In this document: one piece after another, positions 5,986 through 26,449 of the stretch
Layout: every line of letters starts with the position of its first letter
How positions within the stretch are numbered: position 1 is the stretch's first letter
Assembly: GCF_030408635.1 (NCBI RefSeq)
Contig: NZ_CP047198.1
Coordinates: 2,444,773-2,508,772 of the forward strand
Source: Corynebacterium coyleae
GTDB lineage: Bacteria > Actinomycetota > Actinomycetes > Mycobacteriales > Mycobacteriaceae
Direction of reading: 5' to 3'
DNA: 64,000 nucleotides
Translations under genes and position numbers: made by a program
The notes under the pieces: model-generated
Database searches by the model: none
Seen by the model: the letters and a program-made list of their open reading frames with translations, nothing else
Told to the model about the DNA's origin: nothing

Positions 5986-6051
5986 AAGCTGAGTCAGCCT
6001 CCGCCCCTTACGTTGGGCACTTACAGGAGCGCCGAGCGCCTCAATGTCCAC
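5986..6051 (-). pseudogene. 5' relic of a HipB-like XRE gene
   Basis: Minus-strand reading from GTG at 6051 gives VDIEALGAPVSAQRKGRRLTQLE, matching the first 22 residues of the intact XRE genes, then diverges (EYRGSC) without the rest of the HTH. The conserved upstream block is also present (6086-6116). This is a third, truncated copy of the same gene. Confidence 0.7.
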
Positions 6052-6085
6052 GTGTCACTTCCTCTTGCCAAATGTTTGTCTTTGC

Positions 6086-6116
6086 GGAGCGATCACGCCG
6101 AATTCGTTCCGTTAGT
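6086..6116 (-). promoter_or_regulatory. conserved upstream block of the XRE gene, copy 2
   Basis: GGAGCGATCACGCCGAAT followed by TCGTTCCGTTAG, the same block found upstream of the XRE genes at 5141-5171 and 9613-9643; here it precedes only the XRE relic. Confidence 0.45.
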
Positions 6117-6123
6117 CCGCGAA

Positions 6124-6372: not shown

Positions 6373-6385
6373 CGTTCACCTCCCA

Positions 6386-6694: not shown

Positions 6695-6899
6695 GACTCC
6701 GTCTGGTGAAAACACCGGCCGTTTGAGAACTTGCCTAAATTACGCGTTGGCCCGCTTGCCCACCCTTTTCTCCCCATGAGAAGAAGTGTAGAGAGCGATC
6801 TACGGTCTGCATAGCCTCTGACTGCTCATTTGAGTGAACACTTCCCCGCGGAAAACCGCACCAAACGAATAAAGTGCTAAACAAGCAGCGCTTGGGGGT

Positions 6900-7034
6900 T
6901 CACACGCAAGACGCGCCGATGCTGGCGACCTCGCTCGACTGGAGGAACCGACCTGTCGCGAGCCAGCTGGTGGACAGATTGTCGAACACGACACCCGCGG
7001 TGAAGATGACGTCGCGGAGCTGCGTGACGTTCAT
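6900..7034 (-). pseudogene. truncated second copy of the Fic gene
   Basis: From ATG at 7034 the minus strand reads MNVTQLRDVIFTAGVVFDNL, nearly identical to the Fic gene at 5231-5881, then loses similarity after about residue 32 and stops at codon 45. The Fic core is absent, so only the 5' end remains. The rest of the gap, 6695-6899, shows no coding sequence I can support. Confidence 0.8.
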
Positions 7035-7092
7035 GGGCACCTTCCGGGACAGCGGCGAAGACGGACAGCACCGAGTGTAGGGGGCGGATGCG
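6951..7092 (-). repeat. repeat unit A: Fic 5' end and promoter (copy 2)
   Basis: Second copy of the segment at 5800-5938. The stretch 7026-7085 matches the first copy base for base; the coding part has several substitutions. Because promoter and start codon are kept while the gene body is not, this looks like a recombination scar rather than a recent duplication of a whole gene. Confidence 0.75.
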
Positions 7093-7101
7093 AGGGGTCA
7101 G

Positions 7102-7422
7102 TTACTCCTCGTCTGGCAGTGGCTCACCGTATCCGGTGAGAAGGCAGAGTGTCGAAAGGTTGTTGTAGATCTCGATACGTTCCGCCTTGAACTTCCAGCA
7201 CAACGTGCCGAATAGGTCGCCAGGGTTCACGCCTTCTTTGCTTTTGGCCACGAACAGGTGGGCAAGACGGTTGGCGAACTCTTGGTCGTGCCCCTCCACG
7301 GTTGCTCCGCCGCCCGCTGTTCTGCGGTCGGAGTAGATAACGTTCCATCCACCGTTGGGCGACTCGATAACCGCAACCTCACCAGCCCCCGAGACAAGAC
7401 CATATGGAAGATAACCAGCCAT
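7102..7422 (-). CDS. hypothetical protein, 106 residues
   Basis: Unknown function. The start chosen is ATG at 7422 (MAGYLPYGLVSGAGEV), six bases after GGAG; an upstream in-frame start at 7500 would overlap the SDR gene and lacks a binding site. The protein is small and soluble, with a mixed strand/helix pattern (VAVIESPNGGWNVIYSDRR, then a helical LAHLFVAK region). It follows the SDR gene by about 50 bases on the same strand, so the two may be co-transcribed. Confidence 0.6.
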   Translation of the reverse strand: MAGYLPYGLVSGAGEVAVIESPNGGWNVIYSDRRTAGGGATVEGHDQEFANRLAHLFVAKSKEGVNPGDLFGTLCWKFKAERIEIYNNLSTLCLLTGYGEPLPDEE

Positions 7423-7474
7423 TGCTACTCCTCGTGACGCTGACCCGTAATCATCTCGTCCCGCGCAGCTACGT

Positions 7475-8239
7475 CTAGTAGACCTTGTTGGTTCCGCCAT
7501 CCACCATGAGTGTTTGGCCGGTGATGTAGCGGGCGTCGCGGCTAAGCAAGAATGCGACGACCGGGGCGACGTCTGTCTCTGGGTCGCCGAAACGACCGAG
7601 CGGGATGCGCTGCAGAGACTGCTGGTAGAGCTCCGGGAATGCCTCGGACCACTTCTGCACGCCCTCGGTTAGCGCCATCGGACCGACGACGTTGACGCGA
7701 ATGTCGTCCTTCGCCCACTCGTTGGCTACCACGCGTGAAAGGCCACGAATCGCTTCCTTAGCTGCCGCGTACGCCGCCTGGGTGGGCTGGCCGACAATGC
7801 CGGCGCCGGAGGCAAAGTTCACGATCGCGCCACCGTTGTCTTTAAGGTGCGGGTAGGCAGCAAGCATGAAGTTCTTGGTGGCCTCGAAGCCGGTGCCGAA
7901 GGACAGGTCCCAGTCCTCCTGCTGCAGATCGGTGAATGGCTTTTGTCGCGACGCGTGTGCGTTGTTGACCACGCCGGTGAGCTTGCCAAACTTCTCCACC
8001 GCAAGTTTTACGGCCTTCTTCGCGGTCTCCGGTTTGCTCACGTCGCCGTTGAGGAAGACAACGTTGTCCCCGAGGTCGTTCTCGAGGGCGGCGCCGGCGT
8101 CGTCGTTAATGTCTACGGCCACTACCTTCGCTCCACGTGCGACGAGAGTGCGCGAGATTGCCCCGCCGATACCTGCCGCGCCGCCGGTGACCACGGCAAC
8201 CTGATCCTGCAACTGCGTGTTCATATCTTGAGTGCTCAT
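7475..8239 (-). CDS. short-chain dehydrogenase/reductase (FabG-like)
   Basis: 254-residue classical SDR, an NAD(P)H-dependent oxidoreductase. Cofactor motif TGGAAGIG at residues 18-25, the NNAH motif at 92-95, catalytic Ser about 144, Tyr157 and Lys161 in YAAAK, and a C-terminal GQTLMVDGG. Substrate cannot be deduced. The minus-strand promoter box TACACT ends seven bases before the ATG, so the transcript is probably leaderless. That box sits in a CCGAGTGTAGGGGCGGAT-like block shared with the Fic gene and its relic. It is the one metabolic gene within the toxin-antitoxin zone. Confidence 0.88.
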   Translation of the reverse strand: MSTQDMNTQLQDQVAVVTGGAAGIGGAISRTLVARGAKVVAVDINDDAGAALENDLGDNVVFLNGDVSKPETAKKAVKLAVEKFGKLTGVVNNAHASRQKPFTDLQQEDWDLSFGTGFEATKNFMLAAYPHLKDNGGAIVNFASGAGIVGQPTQAAYAAAKEAIRGLSRVVANEWAKDDIRVNVVGPMALTEGVQKWSEAFPELYQQSLQRIPLGRFGDPETDVAPVVAFLLSRDARYITGQTLMVDGGTNKVY

Positions 8240-8269
8240 GAACCCGAGTGTAGGGGCGGATTGGCGAGG

Positions 8270-8521
8270 TTACCCGTGCCTCCACGCAAGAAATGTGTCT
8301 TGCAGATTGAGCCACAGCTCTGCCGAGGTACCACGTGCTGCTCCGACCAGCTCAGCGGATTCCCGCGTAAGCTCCCGCTCGCCCGAGATGATCTCTTTAA
8401 CAAAGCGCGTCGGCCGTCCCATGATCGCGGCGAAATCTGCTTCGCTCCAACCACGTTCTTCTAATTCCTCCGCGAGGAAATCTCCCACTGGGAACGATTC
8501 TGCCAAAGGTTGAGTAACCAT
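8270..8521 (-). CDS. HigA-family antitoxin without a toxin partner
   Basis: 83-residue HTH protein paralogous to the HigA at 6124-6372: MVTQPLAESFPVGDFLAEEL against MTTQPLAEAFPVGDYLAEEL, and the same SAELWLNLQDT tail. GGAGGTG precedes the ATG. There is no HigB-like ORF upstream; only about 70 bases separate it from the hypothetical gene at 8592. Those bases hold repeated GTCAGTG/CACTGAC words (8534-8582) that could be its operator. An orphan antitoxin may act as a repressor or neutralise toxins encoded elsewhere. Confidence 0.82.
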   Translation of the reverse strand: MVTQPLAESFPVGDFLAEELEERGWSEADFAAIMGRPTRFVKEIISGERELTRESAELVGAARGTSAELWLNLQDTFLAWRHG

Positions 8522-8591
8522 TGTTCACCTCCGTCAGTGAACCATCGGAGGACCGTCAGTGGACCTCCAGTGGCCACTGACGATACCGCCG

Positions 8592-9224
8592 CTACGCGGG
8601 CCACATCCCCCAACTGCTGAACCGGTGCCGGTCTACCGCCTCCTCCACGGCATACACCATGTCCCGAAGGGCACCGTACCCCGCGAGCTTCGCCTCCAGG
8701 TCCACGATCAATTGCAGGCCATCGACCCACATCTCCATAACCACGCGCGGTTCCGCCGTCCCCGGCGCGAACAGCGGCAGCGGGAAGTACGCTGAGCCGG
8801 AGTCTTTACCGATTTCACTGCCATCCACCTCGCTGCATTTGTAGTTCAGGCCCATCTCTGCCAGGCCGTCACCAGCCAATTCAGCGCTAGGTTCTGGGAA
8901 CTCAACCTCTCGGATTTCCACCCGCATCGCGCGATCCGCCTCGTCCGCATAGGAGAGAGGTTGCGGCAACACGCGTGAGATGGTGTCGCAAATCGGCCCC
9001 ATCATGTCCAGACGTCCGGCGTCGGCGCATTCCCGCGCGGAGATCGCGAGCCCGTATACGCCAGCAAACCGCAGTTCGTGCGCGAGTGCCTCCCCGCTGA
9101 TCTCCACCATCAACCTGGCCGCCGATTCCTCAGACCGCCCCAGTGCCTGACGGAGGTCGTTCTTTTCAGCCGCTAACTTGGCTGCCTCGAGAATGTCCGA
9201 GAAGAGATTGATGGAGGTGCTCAT
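8592..9224 (-). CDS. hypothetical protein, about 210 residues
   Basis: No recognised domain. ATG at 9224 (MSTSINLFSDILEAAK) is preferred because a plausible TTGAAA...TATTGC promoter overlaps the upstream part; an in-frame TTG at 9284 would add 20 residues. The first half is helical and Ala/Glu-rich, the second half mixed with a Trp-containing end. No signal peptide or membrane span. It lies between two antitoxin-like genes, but nothing in it resembles a known toxin. Confidence 0.55.
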   Translation of the reverse strand: MSTSINLFSDILEAAKLAAEKNDLRQALGRSEESAARLMVEISGEALAHELRFAGVYGLAISARECADAGRLDMMGPICDTISRVLPQPLSYADEADRAMRVEIREVEFPEPSAELAGDGLAEMGLNYKCSEVDGSEIGKDSGSAYFPLPLFAPGTAEPRVVMEMWVDGLQLIVDLEAKLAGYGALRDMVYAVEEAVDRHRFSSWGMWPA

Positions 9225-9301
9225 GCCGAAGATACCATTAAGCGTCAACGCTTCAGGCAATAGCTCCATGCCCGGCAGTTTCAAAACTTGGCGGCCTCAA
9301 A

Positions 9302-9345
9302 CAGTTGGTGCGTACCTACTTGTCCGCAATGTGGAGTCCGCAAGG
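9302..9345. repeat. copy of the TTGTCCGCAATGCGGAGT dispersed element
   Basis: AGTTGGTGCGT followed by ACTTGTCCGCAATGTGGAGT here matches 43144-43178 with only a few changes. The core TCCGCAnTGCGGA is a palindrome in the other copies. A further partial copy is at about 10290-10310. It lies between the hypothetical gene and the XRE gene; function unknown. Confidence 0.5.
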
Positions 9346-9353
9346 GGCGACGC

Positions 9354-9578
9354 TCAAAATCGCCCCAGCTCGTCAGCTCTATGCACGACGGGTTCAAGGT
9401 CGTACCCGAGCACGGCAAGAACGTCGATCACCTTGCCAATCTCGGCCGTCGGCTTACCGTGCTCCAGCTCCCGAAGGAACCGGTCCGACACGTCGGCAAG
9501 CTCGGCGACCTCCAGTTGGGTCAGCCTCCGCTCCTTACGCTGGGCGCGCACAAAGCTGCCGAGTGCCTCTATGTCCAC
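9354..9578 (-). CDS. XRE-family HTH protein (HipB-like), second copy
   Basis: 74 residues, differing from the protein at 4890-5105 at only a few positions and at the C-terminus (RADELGRF). Same HTH, same GTG start, and the same conserved block upstream (9613-9643). No HipA-like gene is adjacent. With two intact genes and at least one relic, this appears to be a locally amplified repressor or antitoxin. Confidence 0.8.
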   Translation of the reverse strand: MDIEALGSFVRAQRKERRLTQLEVAELADVSDRFLRELEHGKPTAEIGKVIDVLAVLGYDLEPVVHRADELGRF

Positions 9579-9612
9579 GTGTCACGTCTCCTCGCTGACC
9601 GTATGCTGTTAC

Positions 9613-9643
9613 GGAACGTTCGCACCGAATCTGTTCCTATAGG
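9613..9643 (-). promoter_or_regulatory. conserved upstream block of the XRE gene, copy 3
   Basis: GGAACGTTCGCACCGAAT followed by CTGTTCCTATAGG. In this copy a better -10 box (TATAGG on the minus strand) is visible next to the block, so the shared part probably covers the transcription start and an operator. Confidence 0.5.
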
Positions 9644-9801
9644 CCGTCAGGTTAGCGCAAAACAGCGCATTTCGGTGTGTTCGCTCCGACTTGGAGGCAA
9701 GCGCCCTCAATTTCAGATCGGCACGTTCGTTTCGCCGAGGGCAAGCTCGCAGGGTGGCCTCGGCCGCATACACGCAGCGATCTGCCTATCTACGCACCGG
9801 C

Positions 9802-12593: not shown

Positions 12594-13770
12594 TTATGCG
12601 GTTAGCTGGTGGTGGTCGTCATGGTCACCTCCAGTTTGGTGCATGAGGTGTTTGGTGTGTTCGAGTGCGGATAGTGACATGTAGCGTTTTTGTTGGATCC
12701 AATCGTCGTGCTGTTCGGCAAGCACCGCGCCAACAGGCCGGATGACCGAGTCGCGGTTCGGGAAGATACTCACGACATCGGTGCGCCGGCGGATCTCCCA
12801 GTTTTACCGCTCGGCGGGGTTCTTCGACCACACCTTCCTCCAGATACGCCGGAACTTCCAGTAAATCAACTACTTCGCGGGCTTGTCGCCAGGTGGATTG
12901 GGCGTCGGGTTGTTGGAAGATTGTCTGGAACATCGCAGAGACCATCGGCCACTGTGTCTTGGGGACTTTTTCGTAGAGGTTCTTCGCGAAATGAGTCCGG
13001 CACCGCTGCCAGGATGCATCGGGCAGCACTTCAGATATCGCGTGCTGGATGCCCTCATGAGCGTCACTGGTGATAAGGAAGACACCGCGAAGTCCGCGGG
13101 CTTTTAAGTCTTGGAAGAAGCCTTTCCACGATGCGTTGGATTCCGCGGTGGCAACATGCATACCGAGCATTTCGCGGTACCCGTCGGCGTTGACCCCAGT
13201 GGCAAGCAGTACGGAGCATTTGACTACCCGGCCACCTTCACGGACTTTGATCGTGAGTGCGTCGCACGACAGGTAGGCATACCCGCCGGGGTCGAGTGGG
13301 CGGTTTTTGAAATCTGCGACCATCTCGTCGAGTTCTTCCGACATGCGTAAGCCTTGCGATTTCGACATGTTGGAAATGCCAAGGGTTGCCACCAGATCGT
13401 TCATTCGGCGGGTGGAGACTCCTTTGAGATAGCACGTCGCGATCACGGTCGATAGTGCGCGTTCCGCTCGTGAGCGGCGCTCGAGCAGCCAGTCCGGAAA
13501 GAACGCGCCGTGGCGCAGCTTTGGTACCGCCACGTCGATCGTGCCGACACGGGTGTCGAGGTCGCGGTGGCGGTACCCGTTGCGTTGGTTGACCCGCTCG
13601 GTGGAAGCAACACCGTACTCAGCGCCGCACACGGTGTCGGCCTGGGCGGAGAGGATCTGGTTGATAAACCCTTGCAGCATCTGGCGCATCAGATCCGGCG
13701 ACGCTTGGGCCAGCAAATCATCCAGATAGGTTGTCGGGTCGATAGAATGCGGTGCAGCGGTCATCGTCAT
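12594..13770 (-). pseudogene. IS256-family transposase, internally deleted
   Basis: Mutator-type (IS256) transposase, intact for about the first 290 residues (SCDALTIKVREGGRVV, SDAHEGIQHAISEVLP, RCRTHFAKNLYEKVP). After LLEVPAYLEEG the frame changes; the correct C-terminus is visible in another frame as WRKVWSKNPAER, a TAA where Leu is expected, then [22 protein letters not shown] and on to a stop at 12594. A deletion, a frameshift and a nonsense codon together make it inactive. It disrupts both the DUF262 gene and the IS1249-type transposase. I could not identify its terminal inverted repeats. Confidence 0.85.
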
Positions 13771-15709: not shown

Positions 15710-16855
15710 TTACACGGCTCCATCTCGGGATGGCCGATCCCACAACGGAGCTAACTGTGGCAGTGAGAGCGCCCAGTCCAGGGATACACGCTCCTGTTCG
15801 AGCCGTTTGTTCCCTGATGCGATCAAGAACCGCCGTGCACGTTCCTCCTCCTCGGTGAGGCGGGGGAGCACGCGTGCAGTATCCCCTGGGTCAGCGACTG
15901 CGAGGTGGAGGAACCTCTGCACGGTGTCAATGTCCATCGCTGCGCTGACTACCGAAACGGAGCACCCGTCGGCAGACAAACGGGTACGCACAGTGTTCAG
16001 GATGGCGTAGCCGTCCGCGTCCGCATCGCCCCAGTACACAATCTGCCGCGCTTGACGGACCCACGGCAGCTCGTGGAGCGCGCCGGCGGTGTACCCCGCA
16101 CCCCAAACCAGCACCACGTTTGAGCCTTCGGGCGTGTGCGGCAGTGCGAGGAACGTCTCCTTGTTCTCGACGACGAGCACCCTAAGGTCATCCGGGAGCG
16201 CAAGCGAGCCAAAGGGAACGGACACATCGACAAGCCCTGGCGCCGGTGCCAACGAAAAATCCAAGAACCGTACCCTCATCATGCGGTCGCCCTCGGCGAG
16301 CCCGAGGTCGTTCACCCCAAGGAGCCGTTGCAGCAATCTCCGGTGCGTGGCGATCCACTTCGTGTCCAGACCTTCGATAGGCACCGCACGCGGACGCAGG
16401 CCGGATTGTGGTTTCACGTGAAACCAATGCAATGCGAGGCAAAGTCGGTTGAAATCTTCCGCTGAAAGCGCAATCCACGCTGAATTGGTGCGAGCAGCAC
16501 GCTCCCGGAACTCCGAACTGTCGGGAAACAGCTGAATCAGACGCGCAAACCTTTCGCGAGCCAGGGCAACTTCCCCAGCACGCCCGACCACCTCTGCTAC
16601 GCGATCCCATCCGGACAACATCAGTCGCACCGGCACGTCGTGTTTGCCCAAGCCCGCCCAGGAACGCGTAGCCCACTCCACCTCACCTGCGGGTTCCCAT
16701 GCTTGCCAGGTGCGGACGAATTCGCGGGCGCGGGTTTCGTCGTCAAGCACCTGCGCACGAGTCGGGGGTTTCAGAGGAATGGACACCTCGACGGGTTCGT
16801 CGAGGAGCAACTGCTCCATATTGAGCTTGAGAGGTAACTGGTCAGGCAGGCGCAT
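15710..16855 (-). CDS. jetD: Wadjet system nuclease subunit JetD
   Basis: 381 residues; DUF3322 N-terminal and DUF2220 C-terminal domains. The C-terminal TOPRIM-like part shows LVVENKETFLALP (acidic metal ligand) and QIVYWGDADADGYAILNTVR, the DxD-type metal site; JetD cleaves plasmid DNA after JetABC has extruded a loop. ATG at 16855 overlaps the end of jetC by 14 bases, fourth gene of the operon. Residues around FHVKPQ are encoded within a parS-like site (16410-16425). Length is normal for the family, so the system looks complete. Confidence 0.9.
   Translation of the reverse strand: MRLPDQLPLKLNMEQLLLDEPVEVSIPLKPPTRAQVLDDETRAREFVRTWQAWEPAGEVEWATRSWAGLGKHDVPVRLMLSGWDRVAEVVGRAGEVALARERFARLIQLFPDSSEFRERAARTNSAWIALSAEDFNRLCLALHWFHVKPQSGLRPRAVPIEGLDTKWIATHRRLLQRLLGVNDLGLAEGDRMMRVRFLDFSLAPAPGLVDVSVPFGSLALPDDLRVLVVENKETFLALPHTPEGSNVVLVWGAGYTAGALHELPWVRQARQIVYWGDADADGYAILNTVRTRLSADGCSVSVVSAAMDIDTVQRFLHLAVADPGDTARVLPRLTEEEERARRFLIASGNKRLEQERVSLDWALSLPQLAPLWDRPSRDGAV
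16410..16425. promoter_or_regulatory. parS-like site, GGTTTCACGTGAAACC
   Basis: Palindromic with the full GTTTCACGTGAAAC core; outer bases differ from consensus. Located inside jetD. Confidence 0.75.
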
Positions 16856-19800
16856 AGGTTTCAATGAGCTCGAAGGTGGAACGTGCGACGGGATCCTCGG
16901 TGTAGTGGACCACGATGGTGCCGTCGACGTACGGGGAGAGGGTCTTGATCAGCTTCATCGGCGTAGCCAGCACCATATGGAAGCCAAAGCTTTCAAACAC
17001 GTCCATCGCAGTGCGGGTGAACACAGGGTCTGCGCGGTCAAAGGCCTCATCCAGCACCACGGTGGCGTAGCGGGGCACGTCCGCATCCACCCCCGCAAGG
17101 CGATAACGCAACGCCGCGGCGAGGCAGAAAAACACCAGCTTCTGCGCCTGGCCGCCGGACAACGACGCGGAATCCACGTGGGTGTTGTGCACCGTGCCCT
17201 CGGCGTCCACCTCGTTGCCCACGAACTTCACATGCCTGCGGGTGTCCAGCACGACGTTGCGCCAACTGCGGTCGGCACGCTCGGAGGAGCCGAGGCGATC
17301 CATGATCTTGGCCAGGCGGTGGTAGCGCTCGATGGCGGTCTTCTCGTCCGCCTCGCTCAAGCTGCCGGCGGTCGCTTCGCGCAGGTCCTGCAGGAAGTCA
17401 CGCACGACGCGGTCTCGGTTGTCACGGACTTCAATCTGCAGGTAGCGCCCCTCGGTGTACGGGGAGCGGCGCAGCGACGCGTTGATGGGGCCCAGGTTGG
17501 TCTCAATGTCGCCCTTCGCGCGCTGCAGCTCCTTGTAAATCGTGTTCAGGTGCATCACGGACTGGCCGTTGAGCAGGTCCAGGAAGCGGCCGCGGAACTC
17601 CGGCAGGCGGTCCGAGCGCAGCATCTCCAACCTCGCAATAGCCTCGCCCGCAAACTCGGCCGCGGCCTGCAGCTCCGCAGACTCTGCGGACCACCGGGAC
17701 TTGTAGTTGGACAGAATGTTCACGATGGCGTTGCTGGATTCCGTGATCGTCTTCGCCGCCTGCTTCGCCTGCGCGTCCAGCTGCGCGGTGACCTTGAAGG
17801 CGCTGTCGCTTAAGTTCTCCGGGGTCAGACGGCGCGTGGTGGCCGCGAGCATCGCATCCAGCTGCTCCGCCAGCGCCGGGTCCACCTCCACGTGCTCCGA
17901 CTCGATCCGCTTCAGCCGCGCCTGATCGTCCTGCAGTGCCCGCGTGGCCACGGCGAGCTCGTCGTGCACGCTGCGCAACTCCTGCTCGGTGGCCTTCAAC
18001 GTATCGACGGCCTCGCGCCACGCCCGCTCCAACTCCTTCGCTTCAGGCGAGGAGGTCAGCCGTTCAAGCTCGGCGCGCAGGCTCGCCAACTGCTCCTCGA
18101 CGCTGATGACGTCCACGCTGGCCCACTCCATAGCGTCGATAGCCCGAGCCTTCTCCACGTCGCTGGCCAGCGCCTTTTGCTTACGCTCAACCTCTGTTAG
18201 GCGGTTGCCCGCCGCCGTTGTCGCGCGTTTCGCCTCCGCCAGCTCCGCGCGCAGCGCCTCCACCTTGGCATGGTTGGAGGAGCCGAGGCGGTAGTTGCGC
18301 CGTTCGCCCAGGCGCTGCCTGTCGTTTTTCACGTACCGGGCGGAGCCAGTCCTATCGGCCGGGTTGCGCTCCAAGCCGTCGATGGTAGCCGCGCGCTTGT
18401 CTTGCCGTTCCAGCTCGTCCACGGTGCGCACTAAGGCGTAGTCGAAGGTGGTGGCCAGCATGCGCATCAGCCAGGGGCGCATCGGGTGCTCCACCACGCG
18501 CACCTTATGAAACAGGCTGAGCGGGTTCTTCGGTCCGCGCGGCATGTCCACGCCCTCGGGCACGGTGCGGTACTCAAGCCGCATCCCCAAGTGGCGGCCA
18601 TTGACCCAGCTGCTCACCTCGCGCTCGCGCTCCGCTGGCACCAAAAGAGTCGCGGCAAAACCGCCGAGCAGGCGCTGGATCACCGGTTCCCACTCGGCTT
18701 GCTCCGGTAGCACGTCGATGAGCTCACCCACGTACGGCAGCTCACGCACCGTCAGCCCGGTATCCGCACACAGCTGTGCGCGCTTCTCCACGTACCGCCG
18801 GTCAAGGTTGGAGGTGCGGTTGCCTAACGACGCCAACTCCGTCTCCACCGACGTCTCCGCGCCGGCAAGCCTCTCGTGCTCGCTTCGGGCCTTGAACCAC
18901 GCTTCGCGCAGGCGTTCTCCCTGCTCCGGCGCGGCCGCCAGCTCCGCCGACGCCTGTGCTTTCAGCTCTGCGAAGCGCTCGGTGTCCAACGCCCCGTCTA
19001 ACTGCACCAGAGCCGCCAGGTCGCGCACTTTCGCCTTGCGCGCAACAAGCTCGTGCTCCTCGCGGGCGATGTTGCGCTCGATCTCGCCCAGGCTCTGCCC
19101 GGCAACCTGCTCTCTCTGCACCACGGCGCGCTGCACCGCCTCCTGTTGCGCTTCCTTGCGGGCCTCGAGGGATTGCGCCTGCACTTCGAGGGCGGCGAGT
19201 TGGGCGGAGCTGACGTCGATACGCTCGCGCAGCTGCTTCGCCTCAATCGCACGTCGCACGTTGGGCAGGGCGGCAGACAACGCGGCATTGTTCTCCTGCG
19301 TCGCCTGCGCATCCTTGAGCTTGGTGTCCAGCCCCGGCAGGGGAGCGAGCGTCTCAATCTGCTGGTGCACGTCTTCGAGCCGCTCGTACGCCTGGCGCAG
19401 GTCCTCGTGCGTGGCCACGGCGTCCTCCGCGACCTGGAACGTGTCCGGTACGTCCAGCATGTAGTTGCGGAACAGCTCGTCCATGCTGGACAGGGACTTC
19501 GCGGACTGCGTGCGGTGCAGCAGCATCTGCGCTTCCTCGCTGCCGATACCCAGCTTGGAGCGGAAGCGGTTGGCAAACACGGAGTACTGGTCCGTGAACG
19601 TCACGCCGGCAGTTTTGTATTTCGCCTCCAACTTGCGCTTATCCAGGGAGTTCTGCAGCAACGGCACGAACCCGTCCACGTCCACCTCGCTGGGAAAAAT
19701 GCCGTAGAGCGTTTTCACCTGCGCTTCCTGCTGCTGTCCCGCATTGAGGCGGTAGATTGCGGCGAGCGTGAACGCCTCCTTCCCGGCGCGGTAGGTCAGC

Positions 19801-20129
19801 GCGACAATGCTGGCTGTCGCTCCGGAGCGCAGGTACTGGCTGCGGATCTCGCCGGTGGCCGGGTCCTCGCTGCGGCGCCACGCACCGCGGATATAGGACA
19901 CGCGGCTGCGCCCCTTGTCACGGCCGGTTTCCTGCTGGGCGGCGGCGTTGAACCGCAGCTTGCCAGGCGGGACTAGTACGGCGGAGAAGGCGTCGATAAG
20001 CGTGGACTTGCCCGAGCCGGACGCGCCGGTGATCAAAAACCCACGCTCGCCGACGGGGATGTCGTAGTAGCCGTCGAACGTGCCCCAGTTGACCAGCTGC
20101 ACGCGCGCAAGACGGAACTGCTCTGTCAC
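16842..20129 (-). CDS. jetC: Wadjet SMC-like ATPase JetC
   Basis: 1095-residue SMC/MukB-type ATPase that, in a complex with JetA and JetB, extrudes DNA loops to detect small circular plasmids. Walker A is GASGSGKST at residues 35-43; a long coiled-coil middle rich in Glu/Arg/Ala contains a hinge-like globular part near residues 450-600; the ABC signature LSGGQAQK is near residue 990 and Walker B TVVLDEAFDRAD near 1020. Start ATG overlaps the jetB stop by four bases (ATGA). All motifs needed for ATP hydrolysis are present. Confidence 0.95.
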   Translation of the reverse strand: MTEQFRLARVQLVNWGTFDGYYDIPVGERGFLITGASGSGKSTLIDAFSAVLVPPGKLRFNAAAQQETGRDKGRSRVSYIRGAWRRSEDPATGEIRSQYLRSGATASIVALTYRAGKEAFTLAAIYRLNAGQQQEAQVKTLYGIFPSEVDVDGFVPLLQNSLDKRKLEAKYKTAGVTFTDQYSVFANRFRSKLGIGSEEAQMLLHRTQSAKSLSSMDELFRNYMLDVPDTFQVAEDAVATHEDLRQAYERLEDVHQQIETLAPLPGLDTKLKDAQATQENNAALSAALPNVRRAIEAKQLRERIDVSSAQLAALEVQAQSLEARKEAQQEAVQRAVVQREQVAGQSLGEIERNIAREEHELVARKAKVRDLAALVQLDGALDTERFAELKAQASAELAAAPEQGERLREAWFKARSEHERLAGAETSVETELASLGNRTSNLDRRYVEKRAQLCADTGLTVRELPYVGELIDVLPEQAEWEPVIQRLLGGFAATLLVPAEREREVSSWVNGRHLGMRLEYRTVPEGVDMPRGPKNPLSLFHKVRVVEHPMRPWLMRMLATTFDYALVRTVDELERQDKRAATIDGLERNPADRTGSARYVKNDRQRLGERRNYRLGSSNHAKVEALRAELAEAKRATTAAGNRLTEVERKQKALASDVEKARAIDAMEWASVDVISVEEQLASLRAELERLTSSPEAKELERAWREAVDTLKATEQELRSVHDELAVATRALQDDQARLKRIESEHVEVDPALAEQLDAMLAATTRRLTPENLSDSAFKVTAQLDAQAKQAAKTITESSNAIVNILSNYKSRWSAESAELQAAAEFAGEAIARLEMLRSDRLPEFRGRFLDLLNGQSVMHLNTIYKELQRAKGDIETNLGPINASLRRSPYTEGRYLQIEVRDNRDRVVRDFLQDLREATAGSLSEADEKTAIERYHRLAKIMDRLGSSERADRSWRNVVLDTRRHVKFVGNEVDAEGTVHNTHVDSASLSGGQAQKLVFFCLAAALRYRLAGVDADVPRYATVVLDEAFDRADPVFTRTAMDVFESFGFHMVLATPMKLIKTLSPYVDGTIVVHYTEDPVARSTFELIETYAPA

Positions 20130-20725
20130 TGTTCTTCCCCTTCCTGTGCCAGGCGCAGATACTCCTCGCGCAGCGCGTGGACCGTGTCAGCGTCGAAGAT
20201 GTGGCGCAGCACAGGGGAGACCTCCCAGCGCCCCTCGGTCTCCGTGTCGGTGAGCAGGCTGTACTTGCGGATGGTGTTCACCGCCGCGGTGAAGCGCTTC
20301 TTAAACCCGGACTCGTCACGGTTGTCCACCGCACGGACGTAGCTGATGGCGCCATACAACTCATCTTCTCCCACCACGACGCGCTCGCCTGGGGTAGACA
20401 TGCCCAGCTCGTGGCGCAGCTGCAGCAGGATCGCGGTTTGCAAGTGCGTCAGCGCCTCCGTGCGCAACACCGGCGGCACTTTCACGTCCTCGTTGTCCGG
20501 GCGGACGTGGCGAGTGAACGCGATGCCGGCGTCCTCGTCCACAACCAGCTCCAAAAACACATCGTGCAGCCGAGAGCGCAGCGTCTCCGTGTCGGTGGTG
20601 ATGGCGTGCCAGGTTTCCTTCTTCCGGTCGGCGGTGATGAGCGGACCTTTGAGCAGGTCCACCAGTGCGCGCCGGGTTTCCTCGGACAGGATGCCCGTGT
20701 CGCCCGTCCACAGCGGTTCCGTCAT
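20126..20725 (-). CDS. jetB: Wadjet subunit JetB (DUF4194)
   Basis: 199-residue DUF4194 protein, equivalent to MukE: links the kleisin-like JetA to JetC. Winged-helix-like character with the family pattern RTEALTHLQTAILLQLRHEL and GRWEVSPVLRHIFDADTVHALREEY near the end. ATG at 20725 follows AAAGGAG and overlaps the jetA stop (ATGA), so translation is coupled. An upstream in-frame extension is unlikely. Confidence 0.9.
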   Translation of the reverse strand: MTEPLWTGDTGILSEETRRALVDLLKGPLITADRKKETWHAITTDTETLRSRLHDVFLELVVDEDAGIAFTRHVRPDNEDVKVPPVLRTEALTHLQTAILLQLRHELGMSTPGERVVVGEDELYGAISYVRAVDNRDESGFKKRFTAAVNTIRKYSLLTDTETEGRWEVSPVLRHIFDADTVHALREEYLRLAQEGEEQ

Positions 20726-22188
20726 TGCATCTCCTTTACTGCTGCGGCGTCGAAATGCCACCGCGGGACCGTCGCCAAGCGAATGCTCCCATCGTCTTCC
20801 TCGAAGCGCACCTCTTCGCTGCCGTCCTGCCGCACCCCATGCTTCAGGGCCAGGTACACAAGGCCCACCACCGACCCCAGCCCCTGGGAGGCGGGATGGC
20901 GCTCGAGCACCTTGCCTATCGACGCCCCTCCGGCCATCCCAACCGTCTCCCCAACTGCCGCGATAAGCTCTTCCAAGTCGATCTCGCTTTCACGTACCGC
21001 CTGGTAGAGCGCCTCCGCGTCGCCCTCGCCGGGTTCAAACGCCTCCACCGCAGTGGTGATGACCTCCGCACCCGGGTCCGCCAGCTTGATCTGCGCCACC
21101 GAGGTGATCTGCATCCCGATGCGCTGCAAGGGCGTGTCCATCTTGTGGGTGGCTGCAAGCTCCTCGCGCTCCGCGGCGTCGGCGGCGAGCTTGCGAGTGT
21201 CGCGTAAAAGCTCGATCATTCGGCGGTCCTCGGCAAACTGTTCGCTGGCCACGTAGTTGCGTAGGTTGCGGGCCAGGCGCGTCATCATACGGTTAACCTC
21301 ATAGCCGGCGTCTTCCATGTCGCGGAACAGCCTGCGGAATTTCGCCCGCTCTTCGTGTGTCATCGCGGTGTTGTCGGCGCGCTCGAGCACCTGCCCAATC
21401 CACGTGTCCAACCACGCGCCGCGTTCCGGGTCGACCACCAACGAGTAGAACGCGTTGAAGCTTCTGCCAGCATCGGATTCCCCGATCAAGTCCACGCCGG
21501 CGAAGATCTCGTCCAGCACGTCGCCGCGCGAGCCCTCCGGATCCAGCAGTTGGCGGCGCAGCTGCGTATTGAGCGTTTCCAGCTCGTGCCGCACGCGCGC
21601 GAAATCGCCGGGGATCGCATTCGCCTGCTCCAGAATGTCGCCCACCCGTTCGTGCACGGTGGCGGGGGAGGGCAGCTCGAATTCCCCGCGCTCGACCTGC
21701 TCGATCTCTGCCTCGATGCGGGCGCGTTCGGCGTCGAGGTGCCTCAGGCGGGAGTCGATGTTCGGGTCCGTGTCCCGCGCGAGCGCCTGCAGGGCATTGC
21801 TTATCGACGCCACCCGGCTCGCCGTCACCGCCGATCGCGGTGCACTGACACGGTCCATCACCTGCAGCGCGGTGAGCGTTTGCTCGCTTGGTTCAAGCGT
21901 CTCACCCGTTTCCTTGGTACCGGACTTGCGCACCAGCCACCCGGCTTTCACCCAGTCGTTGCAGTACGCCTGGGGTTTTTTCGGGAGCTCGAAGATACCG
22001 CGCAACACCGCGAAGTCCTCAGCCATGAGCTGATAGAGCTGCTCCGCAGGTCGGACCTCTGCGCCTCGCGGGAAGTGCTCCGCCACGACCGCGAGTAGCA
22101 CCGGGGCGTTGTCCGCGTGCAACAAACGGATCGCGGCCGACTGCTCCTTTTCACGCTTATATGTCAGCGCCCGGGCCTGAATGGTCAT
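20722..22188 (-). CDS. jetA: Wadjet kleisin-like subunit JetA (DUF3375)
   Basis: 488-residue DUF3375 protein, first gene of jetABCD, equivalent to MukF. The family-typical N-terminus is present: SAAIRLLHADNAPVLLAVVAEHF, followed by a predominantly helical protein with a VNRMMTRLARNLRNYV segment in the C-terminal half. ATG at 22188 (MTIQARALT) or an in-frame ATG at 22200 with GGAGG upstream are both possible. The operon reads away from the 6C RNA gene at about 22.25 kb. Confidence 0.9.
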   Translation of the reverse strand: MTIQARALTYKREKEQSAAIRLLHADNAPVLLAVVAEHFPRGAEVRPAEQLYQLMAEDFAVLRGIFELPKKPQAYCNDWVKAGWLVRKSGTKETGETLEPSEQTLTALQVMDRVSAPRSAVTASRVASISNALQALARDTDPNIDSRLRHLDAERARIEAEIEQVERGEFELPSPATVHERVGDILEQANAIPGDFARVRHELETLNTQLRRQLLDPEGSRGDVLDEIFAGVDLIGESDAGRSFNAFYSLVVDPERGAWLDTWIGQVLERADNTAMTHEERAKFRRLFRDMEDAGYEVNRMMTRLARNLRNYVASEQFAEDRRMIELLRDTRKLAADAAEREELAATHKMDTPLQRIGMQITSVAQIKLADPGAEVITTAVEAFEPGEGDAEALYQAVRESEIDLEELIAAVGETVGMAGGASIGKVLERHPASQGLGSVVGLVYLALKHGVRQDGSEEVRFEEDDGSIRLATVPRWHFDAAAVKEMQ

Positions 22189-22254
22189 GCCGACTATCAT
22201 CCCATAGCACCCTCCCACCTGCACCGAAAAACTTTTTTGCTCTAGGTGTAGACA

Positions 22255-22382
22255 CACTGAGGGCGATCGTCTATATCCGCTTTTGGGCCCCTCCGTCCAC
22301 GGTCCATCCCCCCGAGACCGGTTGAGCACTCACCCACCCCCCATTTAGAGTGCGAGTAGGCGGAAGGAATTCCGCTATTCTC
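22255..22382 (+). ncRNA. 6C small RNA, copy 1
   Basis: Two hairpins each with a C-rich loop, the defining feature of the actinobacterial 6C RNA: CGGT/ACCG (300-303 with 317-320 of this kb) enclosing six C, and GCACTC/GAGTGC (22326-22331 with 22348-22353) enclosing six C. A closing pairing TCCGC/GCGGA (22276-22280 with 22360-22364) and a 3' hairpin GCGGAA-GGAA-TTCCGC follow. An upstream TTTTGCnCTA...TAGACA string is shared with copy 2. Divergent from the Wadjet operon. Confidence 0.8.
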
Positions 22383-22401
22383 AAGCGTTTTTAGGCGCCT
22401 A

Positions 22402-22445
22402 GGGTTAAGGGTCAAAATGTCCGCGTCCCCTTTGACCCTTAACCC
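22402..22445. repeat. 15-bp perfect inverted repeat
   Basis: GGGTTAAGGGTCAAA (22402-22416) is exactly complementary to 22431-22445 around a 14-base loop. No T run follows on either strand, so it is not an ordinary terminator; it could be a recombination or protein-binding site, or the 3' stem of the 6C transcript. Confidence 0.7.
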
Positions 22446-22921
22446 ATCCATTACCCCCTTGGATTGAGAAAACCACGCCGTCACGGCGAACCGGAGAGGA
22501 CGTGGTGTGCGTAAACCCAAACATAGATGATCTACTGAGCAACCATTGAATCGATACCAAATGCCCGAAGTACCAGTGCAGGTCTTTGGTCTCAGTGTTT
22601 CGCAGAGCCGGTGCTCTCGTGTTCCGCGTATTTGGTACCGGGAAACTCGGGGGGTCAAGTCGCGACTTCGTTATCGCCACCGCCACTGCCGCCAGCGCCC
22701 TTACAACAGCCGGGTTTCACGTGAAACATTCGAAGCCACCGGCCGCAGTGCCCACGTGCCAAGCGATCGCGGGCTTCGTCGACAATAAATGCTCCAGGCC
22801 CCTGAAGGCCCCTGACGGCCTGAACGCACCCAACCTTTTCACAACCTTCACCTGCGAATTTCTGTTTCCCACTATGGTCAGAGGCAATCCAGTGGTTGTT
22901 CCTTCGAAGAGAGGTAAAAGG
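22446..22921. other. intergenic stretch upstream of the formamidase
   Basis: Contains a parS-like site (22713-22728) and, near 22872-22882, a weak -10-like TATGGT before the formamidase. I find no gene with a credible start in it; open frames here are extensions of the formamidase frame or chance. Confidence 0.5.
22713..22728. promoter_or_regulatory. parS-like site, GGTTTCACGTGAAACA
   Basis: Full core with one outer mismatch to TGTTTCACGTGAAACA; intergenic, upstream of the formamidase. Confidence 0.85.
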
Positions 22922-23818
22922 ATGCACTCCATCGATTCCAACGCGTGTGTATTGGCCCTGTCTCCGGACCAAGATCCGCGCCTTCATGTGGAAAGCGGCG
23001 ACGAGGTTACGGTTCTTACCCTTGACTGCTTCTCCAACACGATTACCGACGAGTCCCAGTTGTTCAGCACCGTCGGCTGGGACAAGGTCAACCCAGCCAC
23101 CGGCCCAATCGCGGTCAAGGGAGCACGCCCTGGCGACACGCTGAAGGTGGAGATCCTCAGCATCGAAGTCGGCGAGCAGGCCACCATGACCACCCACCCT
23201 GATTTCGGCGCACTGCCCGGCACGGTGGAGGAGCGCACCCGCATCGTCCCGATCCGCGATGGCAAGGCGCAGTTTTCTGACGACATCACCATCCCCATCC
23301 GCCCAATGATCGGCGTCATCGGCACCGCACCGGCATCCGAGTCGGTACCCACCGGTGAGCCGCGCCAGCACGGCGGCAACATGGACACCAAGGAGATCGT
23401 TGCCGGTTCCATCCTGTACTTGCCAGTGGAGGTCGACGGCGCGAACTTGAGCCTTGGCGACGTCCACGCGGTGATGGGCGACGGCGAAGTCGCAGTCTGC
23501 GGCGCCGAGATCGAAGCCGAGGTGAAGATCCGCGTCACGGTGCTCGAGGGCCGCCCGCTGCCACTGCCGTTCTTGGATTCCGGCGACGCGGTCTACGCCA
23601 TTTCCTCCGAGGTCGAACTGATGGATGCCGTCAAGGAATCGACCCGCATGATGCGGGACTGGCTCGTGAGTGCATCTCGCCTCGACGCGACCGACGCTCT
23701 CATGCTCCTGTCCCTGACTGGCGACACCCAGATCAGCCAGATCGTCGACCCCCGCATGACTGCTCGCTTCCGCTTGCCCAAAACGATCCTCAAGCAGTGC
23801 GGTGTGGAACTGCCGTAG
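22922..23818 (+). CDS. acetamidase/formamidase family protein
   Basis: 298-residue FmdA/AmdA-family hydrolase that would release ammonia from formamide or short amides in the cytosol. Family motifs seen: TGPIAVKGARPGDTLKVEI, GNMDTKEIVAGSILYLPVEV and LGDVHAVMGDGEV (metal-site region). ATG at 22922 after AGAGAGG. The last 66 bases are duplicated with six differences, mostly silent, at 24858-24923, beyond the two-gene cassette that follows. So either the cassette integrated at the gene's 3' end or this gene arrived with the cassette by recombination. Confidence 0.88.
   Translation: MHSIDSNACVLALSPDQDPRLHVESGDEVTVLTLDCFSNTITDESQLFSTVGWDKVNPATGPIAVKGARPGDTLKVEILSIEVGEQATMTTHPDFGALPGTVEERTRIVPIRDGKAQFSDDITIPIRPMIGVIGTAPASESVPTGEPRQHGGNMDTKEIVAGSILYLPVEVDGANLSLGDVHAVMGDGEVAVCGAEIEAEVKIRVTVLEGRPLPLPFLDSGDAVYAISSEVELMDAVKESTRMMRDWLVSASRLDATDALMLLSLTGDTQISQIVDPRMTARFRLPKTILKQCGVELP
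23753..23818 (+). repeat. formamidase 3' end, proximal copy
   Basis: 66-base segment repeated at 24858-24923, about 91% identical; differences are at third codon positions, one Thr/Ala change and the stop codon (TAG here, TAA there). The two copies bracket the cassette 23831-24758. Confidence 0.85.
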
Positions 23819-23830
23819 CTAACGGGCAAT

Positions 23831-24544
23831 TCACCATTGCGCATCTGCTTTAGGCGTAGTGAACCCCTCCGGGGGAGTGACGGTAAACCCGAGGTCCCTG
23901 AGCGCCTCTGCAGCAGCTTCGGGATGATCTCGGGTTGCCGCAGAAGCCTGTTTAGAAAGCCATACTCGGCGTCGTTCCTGTAGTGCAGGTTCCCATCCTG
24001 GCCTCCCGCGGAATCCACATTCGCTGATCACAAAATAGAGGAAGTCCTCAAGCGACGGACGAAAACGCTTTCCTCCCACAGGTAAGTGCAATTCATCTAG
24101 GCGGCCCTTCTTCCTCGGGTTGCCTGATTTGTCCTGAAAGTTCTGCATTAACGCTGGACTGAGCAACCCTGCGACCCCTGAGTAGTGGATATGCGCACAG
24201 GGCGCGCTGGTGTAGTCACGCTCAAACTCGAAACGTATGCCCGGCGACGTAGCAACCCGCAGTTCGAATTTGCTGCTCTTTACGGCTAGGAACTTCTCCG
24301 ACGAATCGGATGACAGTTCGTAATTGATAATCACGTGAAAGAGTTGACTGTAGTCTTCCCTGCGCACTGAGCCCTCAGGTTGTCCAGCACCGTGAACGAG
24401 AGGAGCCTTGAAATCACCCACCACGATATTCTTGTCGATGTTTAGCTTGGCTTTCGCCTGTAAATCCGCTCTGCATGCCAGCGGCAACGCCTCAAGTAAC
24501 GTGTCTCTTACGTCGCCGAGAAACCGCCCTGCCGCATCATGCAC
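23831..24544 (-). CDS. unknown cassette protein, 237 residues
   Basis: Function unknown. GTG at 24544 (VHDAAGRFLGDVRDTLL) is chosen because it overlaps the stop of the upstream small gene by eight bases; the longer frame would run through that gene. Visible features: a mixed alpha/beta N-terminal part, HIHYSGVAGLLSPALMQNF in the middle with spaced histidines, then LHLPVGGKRFRPSLEDFLYFVI and an Arg-rich helix near the end. No signal peptide or membrane span. GC (about 52%) is lower than the neighbours. With its partner it forms a compact two-gene cassette between duplicated formamidase ends, a layout common for mobile defence or toxin-antitoxin units, but I cannot assign it. Confidence 0.65.
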   Translation of the reverse strand: MHDAAGRFLGDVRDTLLEALPLACRADLQAKAKLNIDKNIVVGDFKAPLVHGAGQPEGSVRREDYSQLFHVIINYELSSDSSEKFLAVKSSKFELRVATSPGIRFEFERDYTSAPCAHIHYSGVAGLLSPALMQNFQDKSGNPRKKGRLDELHLPVGGKRFRPSLEDFLYFVISECGFRGRPGWEPALQERRRVWLSKQASAATRDHPEAAAEALRDLGFTVTPPEGFTTPKADAQW

Positions 24545-24758
24545 TCCCAAAACGACCCTCACCGAGCAGTAAGAGAACTGTCTGCAGCTCGTCGTACACG
24601 GTCCGCTCATCCTCGCTCAACATGCCGGCATTCGCCAGCACCTTGAGGTCTTGAAATTCAGCATGGGGAAGGCGAGTGGTGGCCCTTAGAGATGCCAAAC
24701 ACTCTCGCTTCCTTTCAAGAAGCTCTTCACTATTGGTGACAGTGATTTCCAATGGCAA
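24537..24758 (-). CDS. small helical cassette protein, 73 residues
   Basis: Function unknown. MPLEITVTNSEELLERKREC followed by an amphipathic, Leu/Glu-rich protein; all-helical by appearance, acidic, the size of an antitoxin or adaptor. Upstream, the minus strand is AT-rich with a direct repeat CAGTTTnATTAA (24796-24824) that includes a TATTAAACT -10-like string. Its stop overlaps the start of the 237-residue gene, so the two are translationally coupled. Confidence 0.65.
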   Translation of the reverse strand: MPLEITVTNSEELLERKRECLASLRATTRLPHAEFQDLKVLANAGMLSEDERTVYDELQTVLLLLGEGRFGSA

Positions 24759-24857
24759 CTTTCTCGCCTCCGTCTGCTTCTTTCGTAACCAGCAGTTTTA
24801 TTAACCGACAGTTTAATAGGTGCCGAGAATCTTCAGCACAAAATTAGCACACCTGTT

Positions 24858-24923
24858 CGCATGGCCGCTCGCTTCCGCCTGCCCAAAACGATCCTCAAGC
24901 AGTGTGGCGTGGAACTGCCGTAA
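24858..24923 (+). pseudogene. displaced 3' end of the formamidase gene
   Basis: Encodes RMAARFRLPKTILKQCGVEL and P plus a stop, the C-terminus of the formamidase, without the rest of the gene. It is the distal of the two copies and probably marks where the resident gene ended before the cassette arrived. Confidence 0.85.
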
Positions 24924-24999
24924 CCGCACCTCACAACCGCAAAACCACGCTATCTACCTGCATGTTTAGCAGTATTTTGCACTAAGACTAGACAAGCCA

Positions 25000-25190
25000 T
25001 TTACACATGATCTATATTTGAGCCGGAGCCCCGCCCACGGTTACACCCCCCCGAGAACCGGCTGAGCACTCACCCACCCCCCCATTTAGAGTGCGAGAGG
25101 CGCGGGCTCCCTTTGGGGGACATAGTCCCCACCCAGGGCCTTCGGGTCCTTTGCAGCGGCCCATGCCCCCCATTGGCCGCTGCATAAATT
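25000..25190 (+). ncRNA. 6C small RNA, copy 2
   Basis: Clear secondary structure: GGAGCCC (25025-25031) pairs with GGGCTCC (25104-25110) and CGCC (25032-25035) with GGCG (25099-25102). Inside are the two 6C hairpins, CGGTT/AACCG (25038-25042 with 25056-25060) and GCACTC/GAGTGC (25066-25071 with 25089-25094), each with seven consecutive C in the loop. Downstream follow GGGGAC-ATA-GTCCCC, GGGCC-TTCG-GGTCC and a strong terminator. In mycobacteria this RNA is a stress- or growth-linked regulator of mRNAs through its C-rich loops; the role here is inferred from that. Confidence 0.88.
25152..25190 (+). terminator. intrinsic terminator of 6C RNA copy 2
   Basis: TGCAGCGGCC (25152-25161) and GGCCGCTGCA (25175-25184) are perfectly complementary, followed by TAAATTTTT on the plus strand. 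Confidence 0.9.
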
Positions 25191-25201
25191 TTTAAACTCC
25201 A

Positions 25202-26449
25202 CTAATCCGCCGAGACCGGCACGGTCAACCAGGCGGAAGCAGCAACGACGACTGCTTCGGTGCCACGGTCGAGTGTGGGCTGGAGATCAGGTGCGAACGC
25301 CGGGTTGTGGTTGCCCACAGCCTTGCTCATGTCCGCGAAGCCTCCCAGGCCCCAGTAGGTGTAGGGGACACCGAGCGCGTCGGGGATGATGGAGAAGTCC
25401 TCGGAGGCGGGTACGGCGTCGAGGTCGCAGGATTCGTCGCCAAAGTATGCGTCGAAGGCTTCGCGGACGGTGTCGGTAGCGTCCCCGTCGTTGTCGGTAA
25501 GCGGGTAGCGGTCGTAGTAGGTGAACTCGGGTTCCATCGGGCTGCGGGCGGCGACGCATTCGGCGCGCACGATGCGCTCGATGGCTTCCTTGAGGTGCTC
25601 GCTGACCTCGCTGCTGTATGCGCGGGTGTTGATGAGCAGTTCGGCGGAGTCCGTGATGATGTTGGACTTCGTGCCCGCGTGGATCGCACCGACGGTCACC
25701 ACCGCGGTTTCCTTGGCCGCCACTTCGCGCGAGACGATGGTTTGCAGGCGCATCACGATGGTGGAGGCAAGCACCACCGGGTCCACGCCCAATTCCGGCA
25801 TCGACCCGTGGGAGCCTTTGCCATGCACCGTGACCTTCACCGAGAATGCGGAGGACAGCACCGGTCCGCGTCGCGTGCCCACGTGCCCGCCGGGCAGGCT
25901 GGCCAGCACGTGTTGGCCCAGGTACACATCGGGCCGCGGCATTGCCTGTTCCAACCCGGCCTCGAGCATCGCGCGGGCACCTTCAGCAGTCTCCTCAGCG
26001 GGCTGGAAGACGCCGATAAATGTGCCGGACCATTGGTCCTTGTGCTCGTTGAACGCCTGCAACGCGGTGAGCAGCGACATGAGGTGAACATCGTGGCCGC
26101 ACGCATGGGCGACGGGAACCTCCACGCCGGTCTTGGCGTCAACCTGCGTGGCCGTGGAGGCATAGTCCTTGCCAGAGGCTTCCTTGACCGGCAGCGCATC
26201 AATGTCTGCGCGCATGGCCACGACTGGGCCCTCGCCATTATCGACGACCGCCACCACCCCTGTTTCCCCCACACGGGTCACCCGGATACCTGAGGATTCC
26301 AGTTCCTTAACGATCCGCTCCGCGGTCGCATGCTCCTGCATGGACAGCTCGGGGTGTTGGTGGAAGTGCTTGTACAGCGCTTCGCGTTCGGTTTGGGTTG
26401 ACGCGAGGCCACCCAAAATCTTCTTGACCTTGCCAATCTCGACAGACAT
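25202..26449 (-). CDS. M20D amidohydrolase (N-acyl-amino acid deacylase family)
   Basis: 415-residue metallopeptidase of the IAA-amino acid/hippurate hydrolase group, which removes acyl groups from N-acyl amino acids. Metal-site motifs: HQHPELS at about residues 30-36, MRADIDALPV (Asp82/84), HACGHDVH with Cys117 and His119, QPAEETAEGA with the paired glutamates near 152, and the C-terminal EDFS. A lid/dimerisation domain lies between. Skin corynebacteria use a related aminoacylase on sweat conjugates; whether this is the same enzyme cannot be told from sequence alone. Stands alone on its strand. Confidence 0.85.
   Translation of the reverse strand: MSVEIGKVKKILGGLASTQTEREALYKHFHQHPELSMQEHATAERIVKELESSGIRVTRVGETGVVAVVDNGEGPVVAMRADIDALPVKEASGKDYASTATQVDAKTGVEVPVAHACGHDVHLMSLLTALQAFNEHKDQWSGTFIGVFQPAEETAEGARAMLEAGLEQAMPRPDVYLGQHVLASLPGGHVGTRRGPVLSSAFSVKVTVHGKGSHGSMPELGVDPVVLASTIVMRLQTIVSREVAAKETAVVTVGAIHAGTKSNIITDSAELLINTRAYSSEVSEHLKEAIERIVRAECVAARSPMEPEFTYYDRYPLTDNDGDATDTVREAFDAYFGDESCDLDAVPASEDFSIIPDALGVPYTYWGLGGFADMSKAVGNHNPAFAPDLQPTLDRGTEAVVVAASAWLTVPVSAD

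Follow-up and report, generated by a model that had tools for sequence, protein, structure and literature searches.

A two-gene cassette of an apparently unnamed actinobacterial family lies between two copies of a formamidase gene end in Corynebacterium coyleae

The window analyzed here, a 64,000-nt stretch of Corynebacterium coyleae DNA (contig NZ_CP047198.1), carries a pair of small overlapping genes that occupy the interval between two copies of the 3' end of a formamidase gene. The features of this locus, in window coordinates, are as follows.

22922..23818, + strand: formamidase/acetamidase-family gene with duplicated 3' end (ATG at 22922 read from the sequence; PF03069)
23753..23818, + strand: 66-nt formamidase 3' end, in-gene copy (repeat search and alignment)
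24858..24923, + strand: 66-nt formamidase 3' end, second and detached copy (repeat search and alignment)
23831..24544, − strand: large gene, 237 aa, effector-like, of an unnamed family (ORF list, family alignments)
24537..24758, − strand: small gene, 73 aa, the partner (ORF list, family comparison, sequence)
24759..24857, − strand: region upstream of the pair with AT-rich repeat and GGAGG (sequence)
22297..22362, + strand: outer direct repeat, left copy (repeat search)
25035..25105, + strand: outer direct repeat, right copy (repeat search)
24546..24561, + strand: 16-nt partial third copy of the repeat core (15/16), inside the end of the small gene

The formamidase gene was assigned by a Pfam profile search (PF03069, E 1.5e-34 over 22931-23815). 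An earlier sequence-only reading of this DNA had proposed that its 3' end is duplicated with mainly silent differences, and this is the case: the two 66-nt copies are identical at 60 of 66 positions (the repeat search scores 65 nt at 92%, and blastn between the two flanks gives E 1.6e-23), and the six differing nucleotides fall in five codons, four of which (Leu, Cys, Gly, and stop) are synonymous while the remaining one changes Thr to Ala. Such mostly synonymous differences suggest that both copies diverged as coding ends. Compared with the genus relatives G424 and G408, the in-gene copy is identical at 56 and 53 of 66 positions and the detached copy at 55 and 52, values that give no age order of the copies. 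The interval between them (23819-24857) has a GC content of 53.3%, against 63.6% for the formamidase gene and 62.7% for the whole window, and holds two genes only, neither with a known-family match, and no recombinase. The same reading had correctly described two coupled, low-GC genes on the opposite strand and the lack of an integrase in the cassette. When just seven seed proteins were used, no ORF of the window matched a recombinase or transposase at E 1e-4; a transposase-like ORF at 12625-13770 was seen by eye.

Two further repeats, neither of them mentioned in the earlier reading, involve this locus. The outer direct repeat, whose copies are 90% identical and which occurs twice genome-wide, brackets the formamidase gene together with the cassette. 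The pattern shared by the 16-nt near-copy and both 66-nt copies matches nowhere else in the genome, and the scores of the near-copy against the two repeat copies were reached by 1 and 8 of 2,000 shuffles; in the same test the reverse strand of the repeat scores 17.5 and 19.0, against 20.5 and 19.0, and the site is small-gene coding sequence that can be aligned with loci L087 and L088. Elsewhere in the window, a segment at 22577-22642 is 79% identical to four other places in the same genome and is perhaps a leftover IS end, given that ORFs resembling an IS21-type transposase pair lie at L180, the one place read. A complete type I Wadjet system (JetD-JetC-JetB-JetA, 15710-22329, all four with strong PADLOC matches) adjoins the outer repeat. 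A cluster of repeated pieces at 4890-9659, 80-90% identical over 139-287 nt with others weaker, contains ORFs that we take by eye to be HTH, Fic/Doc, RelE/HigB, and HigA genes and looks like a toxin-antitoxin patch with duplicated and cut-off copies.

The small gene begins with TTG, 8 nt after a GGAGG motif, and overlaps by 8 nt the large gene, which begins with GTG. A 259-aa version of the large gene from ATG 24610 is also readable, and the close relatives L087 and L088 are without a start there. The AT-rich repeat that had been noticed upstream of the pair was found (TTAAACTG / ATAAAACTG, about 34-58 nt before the small-gene start), and Rfam gave no match in 22000-26000. In an alignment of 69 large proteins, residues conserved in at least 90% of rows include Asp80, Ser91, His118, His153, Pro155, Gly157, Gly158, Arg160, Phe161, Arg162, Pro163, Glu166, Gln199, and Arg205 (237-aa numbering); this alignment is biased to the PVGG motif because the locus scan used that motif. 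A 19-row alignment (A1) made without the PVGG scan has invariant His118, His153, Pro155, Gly157, Gly158, Arg160, Arg162, Glu166, and Gln199. No Tyr or Ser is invariant among the 69 rows, with Tyr107 replaced by Phe in 12 of them and Ser91 by Thr or Ala in 7. Between L087 and L088 the large gene has a dN/dS of 0.20 (values of either gene for other pairs are saturated or rough, and the small-gene row for L020 and L088 was left out for an alignment fault), which places it under purifying selection.

The claim that both proteins are of no known family was borne out in Pfam, NCBIfam, PADLOC, and PHROGs. The window pair matched no Pfam, NCBIfam, or PADLOC model at E 1 and nothing in PHROGs better than E 0.15-0.2. 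Among 19 large relatives, none matched PADLOC or NCBIfam, and Pfam and PHROGs were touched at E 0.04 or weaker by one member each. The alignment of these 19 proteins found nothing in the PDB at E 1; in PDB profile searches the best values were E 0.57 for the large protein and E 0.022 for the small one, the latter to a designed protein, and no credible PDB match was obtained for the large family. A single weak Pfam match, Csx1_HEPN at E 0.0088, came from one of 42 small proteins. No known toxin or antitoxin domain was found in the pair with Pfam, NCBIfam, PADLOC, or PHROGs, or among small relatives with Pfam, and no PADLOC model of a known anti-phage system was matched by the window pair or the 19 large relatives. 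Among the titles listed in literature searches none describes the two-gene family, which carries little weight because a nameless family is hardly searchable.

The pair is an actinobacterial family of more than 100 loci, unnamed in all family libraries searched. Of 301 genomes sampled from the taxonomic family, 18 carry a relative of the large protein. Pattern scans gave 109 matches in a genome collection, 95 of them relatives (80 were kept), and 42 in viral contigs, 10 of them relatives; relatives also occur in five plasmid records and two Mycobacterium abscessus prophage records. The 80 kept titles comprise one Chloroflexota, one Bacillota bin, five labeled 'bacterium' only, and otherwise actinobacterial names. 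The large protein of the window is 72% identical to that of Corynebacterium sp. MSK008 (L088) and 71% identical to that of C. wankanglinii (L087), its nearest relatives, and the cassette of G298, of the same genus, is the same as the C. macginleyi cassette L089. The small gene lies upstream of the large one in 105 of the 107 loci with enough sequence (the misses are L027 and L092), as counted with a model trained partly on these same loci; applied to downstream controls, the model hit 1 of 105, where it met the following cassette of a tandem array. In the M. abscessus prophage prophi102-2, the pair (genes 78 and 77) comes after tyrosine integrase gene 79, close to where the record ends. A metagenome contig (L151, 7782-11756) carries three tandem large genes with repeated sequence between them. 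In the family tree, the starred branches require a minimum of four changes in the case of Mycobacteriales and of three in that of Micrococcales, which can be explained both by transfer and by old paralogy.

The end of the formamidase gene is a variable place. Some formamidase match exists in 26 of 151 genus genomes, and in only three is it at least 82% identical, namely in the genome of the window itself, G424 (86%), and G408 (82%). Behind the formamidase end, G424 carries a 738-aa ATPase that matches the candidate defense model PDC-S06 (E 7e-153), and G408, 1.4 kb past that end, carries a 580-aa Old/AriA-like ATPase (a PADLOC match) followed by a 995-aa gene and a type IIG gene. This different cargo marks the site as variable, with the repeat seen only in the genome of the window; within the 20 kb read, the 66-nt end occurs only once in G424 and in G408. 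The comparison that the earlier reading had suggested, for other cargo between the two 66-nt ends in related strains, shows other cargo here without the second end. The far-side amidohydrolase, searched in 151 genomes, is located elsewhere in the five relatives whose regions were compared, with no other window sequence around it. An empty site for the window copy was not found, close formamidase genes existing only in the three genomes named among the 151.

Movement is seen directly in relatives and at a second cassette of the same genome. In Gordonia sputi (L032, on the same contig as L153), the cassette lies in a 2.8-kb stretch between two identical 38-nt 3' ends of a gene that we take from its translation to encode an acyl-CoA synthetase. 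This stretch also holds a 162-aa membrane-like ORF, and no integrase was found among its ORFs by eye or within 3 kb by seed search. In the Gordonia genome G236, the target gene joins the far flank directly, with alignments overlapping by 48 nt, and this is an exact empty site. The second cassette in the genome of the window is 57% identical to the window copy and lies behind a rhomboid-like gene; its flanks are 56 nt apart in G312 and 37 nt apart in G302, against 1,105 and 1,076 nt here, so that about 1.1 kb with both genes is an insertion. No flanking repeats are visible at this second copy. In G302 (L221, 2114-3103), a 329-aa secreted serine-protease-like ORF is located between the end of the rhomboid-like gene and the intergenic site of the second cassette. 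Together with prophage and plasmid copies, these empty sites support the mobility that had been supposed for the pair. Its supposed integration at gene ends fared less uniformly, as did the suggested comparison for empty sites: some relatives do lie between duplicated ends, and empty sites exist in Gordonia and for the second copy, but none was found for the window copy, which presumably arrived in a similar way.

Repeats of other gene parts surround several relatives. A 36-nt piece of a tRNA-Lys 3' end flanks the cassette and a transposase-like ORF on both sides at L120. At L088 and L087, single cargo genes are separated by repeated stretches of 320-370 nt, which belong to a large gene and stop about 30 nt short of its stop codon; these arrays (L088 3438-9174 and L087 3750-13514) have the cassette among their cargo. 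The repeated gene looks type IIG-like: its relative in G408 matches type IIG restriction enzymes at 2,131 bits, and L087 shows end pieces only. Some match to the array gene end occurs in 38 of 201 genus genomes, with four in G331 (MSK008; one copy split in two), three in G366 (C. wankanglinii), three in G487 (two of them 27 and 31 nt), three of 80-89 nt in G500, and two each in G428 and G477. Elsewhere the repeats are parts near the end of a glycosyltransferase-like gene (L165) or a VapC-like gene (L028), or the start of a quinone-reductase-like gene (L166), all three names being read from translations.

Across the family, flanking repeats of at least 22 nt occur at 10 of 103 cassettes and 8 of 315 control places (p 0.004), and at 9 of 102 without the window (p 0.009); the ten include the window through its outer repeat, with the cassette widened by 350 nt, L137 (23 nt, 91%), and L151 twice through its tandem cassettes. 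Removal of these leaves six loci (L028, L032, L088, L120, L165, and L166), the L087 array lying outside the 3 kb used. The remaining 93 of 103 cassettes are without such a repeat. A tRNA gene lies within 300 bp of 11 of 109 cassettes and 58 of 2,100 control places (p 4e-4), and within 700 bp of 16 and 78, respectively (p 8e-6), whereas a tyrosine integrase within 3 kb, sought with three seed proteins only, was not significantly associated (6/107 vs 55/2,100, p 0.07); control places were drawn from the same loci as the cassettes and are not independent of them. PADLOC matches at E 1e-10 gave no sign of enrichment among 90 nearest-neighbor ORFs against 90 farther ORFs. Near ORFs matched 75 PADLOC families, none by more than two members among the matches listed, and far ORFs matched 32, with at most three members each; the counts are of families and not of distinct proteins, so the result says no more than that. 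The test is coarse, with ORFs crudely called and drawn at random from 121 pairs of the same loci.

We hypothesize that the pair is an accessory two-gene module with a toxin-antitoxin or defense role, which is carried from one actinobacterium to another by small islets, prophages, and plasmids. In the window it would have entered at the formamidase 3' end, so that a further copy of that end now lies on its far side: a piece of DNA bearing a gene end and cargo would recombine with the resident gene end, through homologous recombination or a recombinase acting in trans, thereby restoring the gene while the old end stays behind. The small gene, which comes first and overlaps, may encode a partner for restraining or guiding the large protein, and the large protein may be an enzyme-like effector, with His118, His153, Arg160, Arg162, Glu166, Gln199, and Arg205 as conserved candidates. 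The pair could then act like a toxin-antitoxin or abortive-infection module for its own upkeep or for phage exclusion. Such a module fits the gene order, the overlap, the constant partner, the divergent copies, the triplet in L151, and the carriage by prophages and plasmids. That the cassette is mobile cargo is very probable; if it is, toxin-antitoxin or phage-exclusion action is slightly favored, and the whole chain, a mobile antitoxin-first effector-partner pair moved in trans, has about an even chance of being right. The 105/107 pairing, the empty sites, the excess of tRNA genes and repeats, the prophage and plasmid copies, the low GC, the dN/dS of 0.20, and the L151 triplet argue for it. 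Against it stand the missing empty site of the window copy, the repeat-free state of 93 of 103 cassettes and of the second copy, and the integrase proximity at p 0.07; against toxin-antitoxin function stand the absence of a family match, of a fold, and of a sign of PADLOC enrichment near the family. The large protein, at 237 aa, exceeds most known toxins in size, which also counts against a toxin-antitoxin reading.

Other explanations share parts of this evidence. The pair might be an anti-phage or superinfection-exclusion system other than a toxin-antitoxin, with the small protein as a sensor or adaptor and the large one acting only during infection. The prophage copy beside an integrase, the complete Wadjet system near the window copy, the PADLOC-matching cargo at the formamidase end of two relatives, and the att-linked defense loci reported for mycobacteriophages (PMC8092301) all agree with this, but the pair has no PADLOC match of its own and, among the genes next to the family, PADLOC enrichment was not apparent; we regard this reading as unlikely. 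Its large size and rich set of conserved polar residues, its purifying selection, and its lack of a family link to conflict systems would also suit an accessory pair of metabolic or regulatory enzymes for which mobile DNA is no more than a vehicle. Carriage by prophages and plasmids, a divergent second copy, and the tandems of L151 would, however, be more usual for conflict genes, and we consider such an enzyme pair rather improbable.

It is also conceivable that the 66-nt repeat is a local duplication and that the cassette arrived separately by chance, as in G424 and G408 a single copy of the same gene end is followed by other cargo and the second cassette of the genome was inserted without repeats. 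This is very doubtful: the cassette fills the interval between the 66-nt copies, both copies seem to have diverged as coding ends with mostly synonymous differences, and relatives sit between repeats of other gene ends. Finally, it is scarcely probable that the pair is a self-moving minimal element in which the large protein represents a new class of recombinase, one that places the 1.1-kb pair at gene ends and beside tRNA genes, with the small protein setting its direction, for although nothing else lies between the 66-nt ends and the conserved Arg/His set and the association with tRNA genes and gene ends would suit it, the nearest relatives are flanked by repeats of a different gene, which bracket other cargo too, the prophage already has an integrase, most copies are without repeats, and the large protein has no invariant Tyr or Ser (Phe for Tyr107 in 12/69 rows, Thr or Ala for Ser91 in 7/69).

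Its strict pairing, two empty sites, and a prophage copy make the module a small and concrete object for testing toxin-antitoxin and phage effects. A further point of interest is that cargo this small, with no integrase in sight, can be located at the ends of protein genes, stacked in two Corynebacterium genomes, and this bears on how accessory genes accumulate where no mobile element is visible.

Several known systems invite comparison. The L087 and L088 arrays of single-module cargo separated by repeats resemble the gene-cassette arrays of integrons, but their repeats are near-3'-end stretches of a protein gene and not attC sites. The pair of prophi102-2, following its integrase gene, resembles the att-linked defense loci of mycobacteriophages, although PMC8092301, as consulted here, does not name the pair, its main text does not contain prophiGD102-2 under the spellings searched, and most copies of the family lie outside prophage records. 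Like type II toxin-antitoxin systems, the pair has a small gene that comes first and overlaps a larger one, and it is mobile, multi-copy, and borne by prophages and plasmids; it differs in having no known toxin or antitoxin domain and a large protein of 237 aa. CIMEs (PMC5704250) lie between gene ends; they are ICEs or IMEs that have decayed, keeping attL and attR but losing their integration genes, and they can stack by accretion. The cassette unit is only 1.1 kb (2.8 kb in Gordonia) with no parent element seen, and the gene-end repeats of L087 and L088, at 320-370 nt, are also unlike those of CIMEs. The cassette nevertheless resembles CIMEs in that a gene end flanks the cargo on both sides, integration genes are missing, and stacking is possible at one site, the flanking gene-end copies measuring 66 nt in the window, 38 nt in Gordonia (L032), and 36 nt of tRNA-Lys at L120.
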